Below, in pieces: positions 1 through 43,340 of a DNA stretch of 43,340 nucleotides. Below the pieces are notes generated by a model, which was not told where the DNA came from, searched no databases, and saw nothing but the letters and a program-made list of their open reading frames with translations. This stretch comes from an uncultured Gammaproteobacteria bacterium. Lineage in GTDB: Bacteria > Pseudomonadota > Gammaproteobacteria > SZUA-152. Both the position numbers and the translations under genes were made by a program. Position 1 is the stretch's first letter. Each line of letters starts with the position of its first letter. The stretch is taken from positions 1-43,340 of the forward strand of contig CAJVYS010000013.1 of the NCBI GenBank assembly GCA_913009875.1. The letters run 5' to 3'.

Positions 1-242
1 AGTTGATACTTTGCTAATTATTGATGAGTATATCCGAATATGTGTATGTATTGATCATCATGTTATTATCATGTTACTTTCGTGTTATTAATATATCTGC
101 TTTTTTTTTTGTTTTTTTTTTGTTGTATTTTTTTATTTTTTTTATTGTTTTTGTATTTTTTTTTTTTTTTTTTTTTCAAGCAGAAGACGGCATACGAGAT
201 ATATCAGTGTGACTGGAGTTCAGACGTGTGCTCTTCCGATCT
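1..242. other. Non-genomic leader: low-quality poly-T plus Illumina P7/TruSeq adapter
   Basis: Bases 1-176 are T-rich low-complexity sequence. Bases 177-242 are exactly a 24-nt P7 flow-cell sequence (caagcagaagacggcatacg...), an 8-nt index (atatcagt) and the 34-nt read-2 primer site ending in gctcttccgatct. Read in reverse complement this is insert, adapter, index ACTGATAT, P7, then poly-A, the usual product of reading past the end of a short library molecule. From memory the index matches TruSeq index 25. The two ORFs in the track over this area (21-303) are artefacts. Genomic sequence begins at about 243. Confidence 0.98.
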
Positions 243-30029: not shown

Positions 30030-30110
30030 GTAGCCTGGATGAAGCGCAGCGGAATCCGGGAGATGGTTGGGCTAAACTTCCCGGATTCCGCTGCGCTTCA
30101 TCCAGGCTAC
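30030..30110. repeat. Perfect 32-bp inverted repeat with 17-nt loop
   Basis: Arms 30030-30061 and 30079-30110 (GTAGCCTGGATGAAGCGCAG...) are exact reverse complements. Arms of this wording recur in intergenic space of many gammaproteobacterial genomes; its mobilising enzyme is not known to me. It lies in the 474-nt gene-free space 29980-30453, which otherwise holds only the tetR promoter. Confidence 0.9.
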
Positions 30111-38462: not shown

Positions 38463-38963
38463 TCAGTCTTCGATGACTTCCGCACTCTCAATGACGATGT
38501 CCTCGGCGGGTACGTCCTGGTGTCCGCCGCGGGTGGTGGTGGGCTGGCCCTTGATGCGGTTGACCACGTCCATGCCCTCGACCACCTTGCCGAACACGCA
38601 ATAGCCCCAGCCCTGCCCGGTGGGGGCGGTGTGGTCGAGGAAACTGTTGTCGGCGATATTGATGAAGAACTGCGAGGTGGCGGAGTGCGGGTCGTTGGTA
38701 CGCGCCATGGCCACGCTGCCGGTGAGGTTCTTCAGGCCATTGTCGGCCTCGTTCTCGATGGGATCACGGCCGCCGGGCTTGGGGCTCATGTCCGGCAGCA
38801 TGCCACCGCCCTGGACCATGAAGTTGTCGATCACGCGGTGAAACAGGGTGCCGTCGAAGAAACCGTCTTTGGCGTATTGCTCGAAGTTGGCGGCGCTTTT
38901 CGGGGCCTTGTCAAAATCCAGTTCGATGTCGATGTCACCCATGTTGGTATGCAGTCTGATCAT
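38463..38963 (-). CDS. ppiB: Peptidyl-prolyl isomerase PpiB (cyclophilin)
   Basis: 166 aa, no signal peptide, so cytoplasmic. Cyclophilin core: [37 protein letters not shown] and [16 protein letters not shown]. Catalyses cis-trans isomerisation of Xaa-Pro bonds. The ATG follows AGGAAAA. Immediately downstream (27 nt) of a secreted paralogue, with which it probably shares a transcript. Confidence 0.95.
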
Positions 38964-38990
38964 GCGTTTTTCCTGATGAAAGAATGAAAA

Positions 38991-39587
38991 TTAGTGGCCT
39001 GCGTCGGTGGTTTCCACGGTGACCTTTTCGATGATGACCGGGGTGCGTGGCACGTCTTTACGGAAGGGGCCGCCGGAACCGGTCTTGCTGCGGCGAATCT
39101 TGTCCACCACAGGCATGCCCTGGACCACGCGGCCGAATACGGTGTAGCCCCAGGCTCGCTGGGTCTTTTCGCGGAAATCGAGGAAGCTGTTATTGGCGAC
39201 ATTGATGAAGAACTGCGCGGTGGCGGAGTGCGGGTCGCCGGTGCGGGCCATGGCGATGGTGCCGATCTTGTTGCGCAGGCCGTTGTCGGCCTCGTTCCTG
39301 ATCGGGGCGTGGGTGTCTTTTTTCTGAAAGTCCGGGGTGAAGCCGCCACCCTGGATCATGAAGCCATCGATGACGCGGTGAAAGATGGTGCCGTCGTAGA
39401 AGCCTTCATTGACATAGGTGAGGAAGTTTTCCACCGTCTTTGGGGCCTTTTCGCGATCCAGTTCCAGCACCATGTCACCCATGTTGGTGGTGATGCGAAC
39501 GCGTGGGTGGGTGTCGTCGGCCAGCAGCAGGCCGGGCAGCAGTGAAAGGGCGAAAAATATAACCAGTGTGCGAGTCAGAGCTTTCAT
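38991..39587 (-). CDS. ppiA: Periplasmic peptidyl-prolyl isomerase (PpiA-like cyclophilin)
   Basis: 198 aa with a cleavable signal peptide ([18 protein letters not shown]) followed by the same cyclophilin core as ppiB ([37 protein letters not shown]). Periplasmic folding catalyst. The two adjacent genes look like an old duplication with one copy retargeted. ATG preceded by AGGAA at 8 nt. Divergent from cysS. Confidence 0.92.
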
Positions 39588-42391: not shown

Positions 42392-42468
42392 CGGGGTGTA
42401 GCGCAGTCTGGTAGCGCGCCTGCTTTGGGAGCAGGATGTCGGGGGTTCGAATCCCTCCACCCCGACCA
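42392..42468 (+). tRNA. tRNA-Pro (TGG)
   Basis: 77 nt with encoded CCA. Acceptor CGGGGTG/CACCCCG, anticodon stem CCTGC/GCAGG with loop TTTGGGA giving anticodon TGG, T-arm GGGGGTTCGAATCCC. The minus-strand ORF across it (42261-42602) is spurious. Confidence 0.98.
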
Positions 42469-42524
42469 GTATATTGTTGGCTATGCGATATAGTCATCCG
42501 GCGATGCGGGCAGGCTGGTTCTCT

Positions 42525-42601
42525 GCGCTCGTAGCTCATGCGGATAGAGCATCGGCCTTCTAAGCCGAGGGTAGCAGGTTCGAATCCTGCCGGGCGCGCC
42601 A
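42525..42601 (+). tRNA. tRNA-Arg (TCT)
   Basis: 77 nt with encoded CCA. Acceptor GCGCTCG/CGGGCGC, anticodon stem TCGGC/GCCGA with loop CTTCTAA, anticodon TCT. Starts 56 nt after tRNA-Pro, so probably the same transcript. Confidence 0.98.
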
Positions 42602-42680
42602 ATTTAGTGTTGTTATTTGTAGAGTGTCTCTAAACATTCAGCGCAACGGCATTGAGTGATTAGATACACCCGTTAGGGTG

Positions 42681-42708
42681 TTCAATTCAGGGCGGCTTCA
42701 TGTATAAT
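42681..42708 (+). promoter_or_regulatory. Promoter of tRNA-His
   Basis: TTCAAT (42681-42686), 16-nt spacer, TATAAT (42703-42708), followed by a GC-rich discriminator CGCCGCCC. tRNA-His starts 17 nt later. Confidence 0.65.
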
Positions 42709-42725
42709 CGCCGCCCTGCTGAGAT

Positions 42726-42802
42726 GGTGGGCGTAGCTCAGTTGGTAGAGCGCAGGATTGTGATTCCTGTGGTCGTGGGTTCAAATCCCATCGTCCACCC
42801 CA
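42726..42802 (+). tRNA. tRNA-His (GTG)
   Basis: 77 nt counting the extra 5' G that marks tRNA-His (paired with C73). Anticodon stem CAGGA/TCCTG with loop TTGTGAT, anticodon GTG. CCA encoded. Confidence 0.98.
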
Positions 42803-42891
42803 TTTTTGATGTTTGAAGGGCATGATCCGTTTGGGGTAAAATCCGGCGGATTATGTCAGCCAGTATTGGGTGCCCGTGGCATCGCAGTTAC

Positions 42892-42967
<76 letters not shown>

Positions 42968-42973
42968 AACGAC

Positions 42974-43000
42974 AAGGCCCGGCAATTGCCGGGCCTTATT
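42974..43000 (+). terminator. Terminator after tRNA-Lys
   Basis: A 24-nt perfect palindrome AAGGCCCGGCAATTGCCGGG(CCTT) followed by ATTTGTTT ends the tRNA transcript. Confidence 0.85.
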
Positions 43001-43057
43001 TGTTTATGGCGATGGGTTTATGGTGACGGGTTTCTGTCGATGGGTTTTTGCCGGTGG

Positions 43058-43063
43058 TATACT
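43058..43063 (+). promoter_or_regulatory. -10-like element upstream of the terminal repeat
   Basis: TATACT lies 32 nt before the first tRNA-Leu-like unit, the distance seen for tRNA promoters. The -35 region is weak. Confidence 0.3.
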
Positions 43064-43092
43064 GTGTCTTCTGTCGCGCAGGACGAATCGAA

Positions 43093-43340
43093 TACGCGAA
43101 AGTGGCGGAATTGGTATTTAGAAACGCTCAAAGAGCGTAGCGAATGCTAGCGATTCTTAAGGTGAATACGCTGGATTAGCACGGCGGGTTGGTAGCCTGC
43201 AACTGGTTTTAATTACGCGAAAGTGGCGGAATTGGTATTTAGAAACGCTCAAAGAGCGTAGCGAATGCTAGCGATTCTTAAGGTGAATACGCTGGATTAG
43301 CACGGCGGGTTGGTAGCCTGCAACTGGTTTTAATTACGCG
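43093..43340. repeat. 121-bp tandem repeat with tRNA-Leu-like 5' half (contig end)
   Basis: Exact period 121 from 43093 to the last base (two full units plus 6 nt). Each unit includes GCGAAAGTGGCGGAATTGGT (43096 and 43217), which matches the acceptor 5' strand and D-arm of a tRNA-Leu, but then departs: no anticodon arm, T-arm or CCA follows. The rest can form hairpins: ACGCTC-AAA-GAGCGT, GCGATTC-TTAAGGT-GAATACGC, GCGGG-TTGGTAG-CCTGC, and AATTACGC/GCGGAATT across the unit boundary. The 248-nt span equals 121+127, the mark of an assembly loop at k=127. Function unknown. Confidence 0.85.

Follow-up and report, generated by a model that had tools for sequence, protein, structure and literature searches.

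In tyrT, the 3′ end of tRNA-Tyr is repeated in an array that lies downstream of the tRNA gene. In this Escherichia coli rtT/tyrT system, small RNAs are released from the tRNA transcript (PMC4986893). Partial tRNA genes also arise at tRNA-targeted genomic islands. In the Islander collection, 5′ fragments are found in 159 of 3919 islands, the size floor is 2 kb, crossover subsites lie in the anticodon loop, the T loop, and the T/acceptor junction, and cases of tandem islands exist (PMC4383910). Integration can likewise leave tRNA gene fragments, partial copies that are found besides the full gene (PMC9897764).

The locus compared here lies at the end of the window, the whole 43,340-nt stretch of DNA that was analysed, which belongs to contig C13 of an uncultured gammaproteobacterium (genome G000). 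Features of the locus in the window are all on the plus strand. A cluster of tRNA-Pro(TGG), tRNA-Arg(TCT), tRNA-His(GTG), and tRNA-Lys(CTT) (42392..42967; ARAGORN), in an order that relatives share, lies directly upstream of a tandem array. The tRNA-Lys gene is followed by a predicted intrinsic terminator with a 10-pair stem and a T-rich tail (42974..42997), a hairpin that is also kept in relatives. Further on, an extended −10-like motif, TGGTATACT (43055..43063), is a sequence-based candidate for the promoter of the array and tRNA-Leu. At this candidate −10, GGTATACTG is retained in the genus relatives read (G001-G006), and a generic consensus scan made no promoter call at 43055..43063.

The array consists of two perfect 121-nt units and 6 further nucleotides, and it reaches the last base of the contig (43093-43340). 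Tandem Repeats Finder reports 2.0 copies with a period of 121, 100% matches, no indels, and a score of 496, far above that of every other array in the window. Its left border is exact, with an A at 43092 against a T one period on, at 43213. Both results confirm the original observation that periodicity starts exactly at 43093 and runs for 248 nt to the end. Unit 1 (43093..43213), here called variant A, and the identical unit 2 (43214..43334) were delimited from the sequence and by Tandem Repeats Finder, and the contig stops after the first 6 nt of a next unit (43335..43340). Elsewhere in the window, two adjoining minus-strand ORFs (38463-39587) are a tandem gene duplication, with stretches of DNA that are 73-82% identical and lie about 540 nt apart, and positions 30030-30110 contain GTAGCCTGGATGAAGCGCAGCGGAATCCGGGA, a perfect inverted repeat of 32 nt around a 17-nt loop.

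Each unit begins with TAC, 3 nt before a 21-nt copy of the start of tRNA-Leu(TAG), GCGAAAGTGGCGGAATTGGTA. Next come a 44-nt hairpin (H1), the stretch GGTGRAYA, and another hairpin (H2), and the unit closes with AT-rich sequence. The first copy (43096..43116) matches the tRNA-Leu gene on contig C81 of the same genome at 100%, and a second copy that matches this gene is found at 43217..43237. Identity to the tRNA extends through GGTA to position 21, within the D loop. H1 (TTTAGAA...TTCTTAA; 43117..43160 in unit 1 and 43238..43281 in unit 2) is delimited by covariation and by a covariance model, whose match to the first unit spans 43111-43173. H2 (43184..43200 and 43305..43321) is a predicted hairpin of the variable part, terminator-like in G000 and different in sequence between lineages. 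The tRNA-Leu(TAG) gene is single-copy in G000, and its exact 5′ fragment is found elsewhere only in the array. A conserved reading frame was not found in the unit, where stops break the frames read by eye and the longest has no Pfam match. A coding unit was rejected on these grounds; its best frame, LVFRxAxRAxRVLAILKVDTLE, is stopped at the same place in most units. Rfam gave nothing significant in window 43060-43340 or in the array of the relative G389 (L041).

Contig C81 supplies the other side of the locus. It ends in 248 nt made of 2.05 perfect copies of a variant unit, variant B, which is 93% identical to variant A of the window. There the array resumes on the minus strand (L004 15901-15654) and leads straight into a complete tRNA-Leu(TAG) gene (L004 15674-15590, minus strand), followed by tig (trigger factor, by Pfam). 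The ORFs beyond tig were read by eye and presumably encode ClpP, ClpX, and Lon. Since G001 and G003 carry tRNA-Lys, a single unit, and tRNA-Leu on one contig, C13 and C81 are neighbours that the array has split. The length of 248 nt had been explained as the period plus 127, the span expected of a cycle at k=127, and this sum holds on the ends of both contigs; a k=127 graph with two self-loops, one for A and one for B, explains both. If both variants come from one genome, at least four units (two A and two B) lie between tRNA-Lys and tRNA-Leu. Alternatively, A and B may come from two strains. Assemblies of relatives also break within this array, each according to its own k. In a one-k variant of the self-loop signature, a G004 contig with k141 in its name stops after exactly 141 nt of repeat. 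Two contigs of G415 overlap by exactly 127 nt.

Units have also been assembled through. In G006 (L006), three units are present, the third cut by the contig end, and in G389 (L041) a complete two-unit array is joined to tRNA-Leu. These arrays support the earlier view that the repeat is a genuine tandem array whose copy number was lost in assembly; the identity of the unit, a tRNA-Leu 5′ end with a hairpin, and its placement between tRNA-Lys and tRNA-Leu are additions to it. A false repeat made at the contig end is very unlikely, the least credible of the explanations weighed here. Untrimmed adapters do occur at other contig ends of this assembly, but other species, assembled independently, show the same unit, in part as complete arrays within contigs. 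As for the adapters themselves, window 1-242 is non-genomic; it opens with T-rich sequence and then contains a full Illumina index adapter (CAAGCAGAAGACGGCATACGAGAT...GTGACTGGAGTTCAGACGTGTGCTCTTCCGATCT, about 177-242), which indicates that the reads were not adapter-trimmed. At the far end of C81, L004 1-44 is an Illumina adapter (CACCGAGATCTACACTCTTTCCCTACACGACGCTCTTCCGATCT) that gives a false ORF tail ending GRASCRERV. The array explains the repeated assembly breaks at this locus, by which tRNA-Lys and tRNA-Leu/tig end up on separate contigs.

Among relatives, one unit is present in G001, G003, G010, and G017, two in G389, and at least two or three in G004, G415, and G006. In all of them the units directly precede tRNA-Leu(TAG). 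The occurrence of the same unit before the same tRNA gene in related bacteria makes the array look like a tRNA-linked element, old and so far undescribed, and not like an assembly oddity. Across 24 genomes of one family, a model of H1 found the unit in seven genomes of the window's order, at this locus only, and all strong model matches sit at tRNA-Leu(TAG). A remnant unit with an internal deletion is found in G005, while G002, G007, G008, G009, and G011 carry this type of tRNA but lack the unit. Among the 11 genomes besides G017 in the genus g6, neither a close match to this tRNA-Leu nor an H1 match was found, and 10 of them have a different tRNA-Leu(TAG). Given its patchy presence, with absence or decay in these six relatives (G002, G005, G007, G008, G009, and G011) and in most of g6, the element is dispensable.

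The tRNA-Leu gene itself varies in g6. In most of these genomes (L118-L127), tRNA-Leu(TAG) has other acceptor and T stems, of the GCCGTCC or GGGGCGG type. The presence of these types where other genera have the GCGAAAG type suggests, from sequence comparison, replacement of the tRNA gene at a fixed locus. Recent horizontal transfer of the G017 tRNA-Leu was considered and set aside; its GCGAAAG type is shared with other genera, and retention of an older gene is as likely.

Wider searches added few members. When 85,462 species genomes were scanned with an exact-core pattern, five contigs matched, each of them at this locus; one, JAOULB010000005.1 (L041, genome G389), lies outside the window's order. 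A search of the order of G389 added G415, giving 2 of 40 genomes in all. A model search with strict filters over 369 genomes of the class and 399 of the phylum yielded no further strong or convincing members. The 15-mer GGAATTGGTATTTAG, searched with one mismatch allowed in the 369 class genomes, had exact matches only in G389, already known, and its one-mismatch matches showed no adjoining tRNA-Leu at the 20 loci examined. Several candidates were rejected. The motif GAGCGNAGCGAR, often within palindromes, occurs 40 times in G000 against 2 times for the reversed control; the motif is overrepresented in these genomes, yet many dispersed palindromes that are unrelated to each other contain it, and it was not accepted as the element. 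In G136 (L031, L035, L036), dispersed hairpins TTTAGTCTTTCTTAACGAGCGAAGCGAGTTTAGAAAGACTTAA with an H1-like layout are found away from tRNA genes. Weak model matches in this genome were judged convergent because GAGCGNAGCGAR occurs in so many unrelated palindromes. Loose-pattern matches in viral contigs, candidates for tandem tRNA-Leu, proved to be ordinary complete tRNAs.

H1 is the part of the unit that is conserved as a structure, as judged from an alignment of 13 units from 9 mutually related genomes. In this sample, 92.6% of its cells are paired, compared to 28-59% for slid structures, and five pairs show compensatory changes on both sides. The covariation score, the number of double-changed cells, and the percentage paired were reached by none of 500 shuffles. 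Single units fold at energies only modestly lower than those of shuffles, with z-scores too weak to use alone. Between lineages, the tRNA copy and H1 are about 62-100% identical, whereas the tail is unalignable at 22-50%. Across the two orders (G000 against G389/G415), identity is 86-100% for the tRNA copy, 79-83% for H1, and 30-49% for the tail. Trigger factor is only about 47% identical between these orders, and the conservation of H1 and the tRNA copy despite this distance speaks against both recent transfer and neutral drift. The selection on H1 could act on single-stranded DNA instead of RNA.

These comparisons bear on the possibility that the array is neutral debris without a function, left from an old duplication of part of tRNA-Leu (its 5′ end) with its leader, and that it grows and contracts by slippage and gene conversion. 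Copy number is variable and several relatives have lost the unit, as such debris would. In G001 and G006, a T insertion in the D loop is common to the tRNA and the repeats, which suggests homogenisation between the tRNA-Leu gene and its copies, as read from the sequences. However, H1 is no part of the tRNA, and it has been kept across orders with compensatory changes, unlike the tail next to it. This pattern already disfavours neutral debris and makes it improbable.

Because an intact tRNA-Leu comes after the last unit, the array resembles an insert placed at the 5′ end of the tRNA without breaking the gene. One rival reading is an intron-like insertion, with the first copy as 5′ exon and with removal of all that follows it as far as the D loop of the last copy. 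For G010 and G389, folding predicts that the 3′ strand of the tRNA pairs with the upstream copy at a probability of about 0.97, and in G010 the acceptor strand finds a better match in the upstream copy than in the 5′ end of the gene itself. Yet the predicted pairing varies between genomes, the last copy alone yields a complete tRNA-Leu in every genome, and upstream copies are damaged in G017 and G415. To our knowledge, no self-splicing RNA is as small as this insert. The chance that the insert is intron-like is therefore slim. In some genomes, but inconsistently, folding predicts competition of upstream copies for the acceptor strand of the tRNA.

The main rival explanation, still an unlikely one, is a minimal mobile element or its relic, whose specific target is the 5′ end of tRNA-Leu(TAG). 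Its ends would be marked by the displaced fragment and the restored gene, like attL and attR, and arrays would be formed by reinsertion at the recreated site. Islander recognises tRNA-targeted islands by such a pattern, a whole tRNA gene with a 5′ fragment displaced upstream of it, on the correct side and in the same orientation (PMC4383910), and the single site, the patchy occurrence in two orders, and the tandem copies fit an element of this kind. In contrast to such islands, the insert is only about 100 nt long, about twenty times shorter than the 2-kb floor, and carries no gene; neither an integrase nor a larger relative was found. The fragment ends in the D loop and not in the anticodon loop, the T loop, or the acceptor junction where island crossovers fall. 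No copy of the element was matched in collections of phage, plasmid, and viral contigs. The scrambled tail between lineages and the decayed copy in G005 suggest long residence rather than movement. The fragments left by integration (PMC9897764) resemble the locus in being partial tRNA copies besides a full gene, but here the copies come with a conserved hairpin and form tandem repeats at a single locus across many species.

Of the known systems, rtT/tyrT is the closest. Both have tandem repeats within a tRNA transcription unit, each with one end of the tRNA gene; the difference is that the present units repeat the 5′ end of tRNA-Leu, in an array upstream of the gene. The Rfam covariance model of rtT gave no match at E-values up to 10 in the window array or the L041 array. 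By this comparison the element resembles the rtT/tyrT repeats without being a member, and any release of RNA from it is putative. It is outside both the rtT/tyrT and the tRNA-targeted island families.

The reading preferred here, held with slightly more confidence than doubt, is that the array is an old structured RNA element transcribed in the leader of tRNA-Leu, with a copy number that changes by recombination. With the tRNA-Lys terminator and the conserved −10-like TGGTATACT upstream of it, the array probably forms the 5′ leader when tRNA-Leu is transcribed. Transcription in the sense of the tRNA would start from this candidate promoter, just past the terminator of tRNA-Lys. RNase P cleaves at the 5′ end of tRNAs in established tRNA processing, and its cut would detach the array from pre-tRNA-Leu. 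The freed leader would be a repeat RNA or a set of unit-length RNAs, with H1 as the part under selection, and unequal recombination between identical units would alter their number. A putative small RNA, or control in cis of tRNA-Leu synthesis, is the likeliest reason for the upkeep of the array. From the predicted terminator-like H2 in G000, each unit might also attenuate transcription; the U-rich tail of H2 is not retained in G389. More tentatively, and with somewhat less than even confidence, the units may be an old, undescribed structured RNA element, tandem mimics of the 5′ end of tRNA-Leu(UAG), each with the conserved hairpin, that are transcribed ahead of its single gene and control the tRNA or act as RNA themselves, in an array of tunable length.

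If the units are made as RNA, several uncultured gammaproteobacteria keep a single-copy, presumably needed tRNA gene behind an array of variable length built from its own 5′ end. If true, this would be a new route for a tRNA leader to acquire a regulatory or small-RNA role, and a parallel to the tyrT/rtT repeats at the opposite end of the tRNA.
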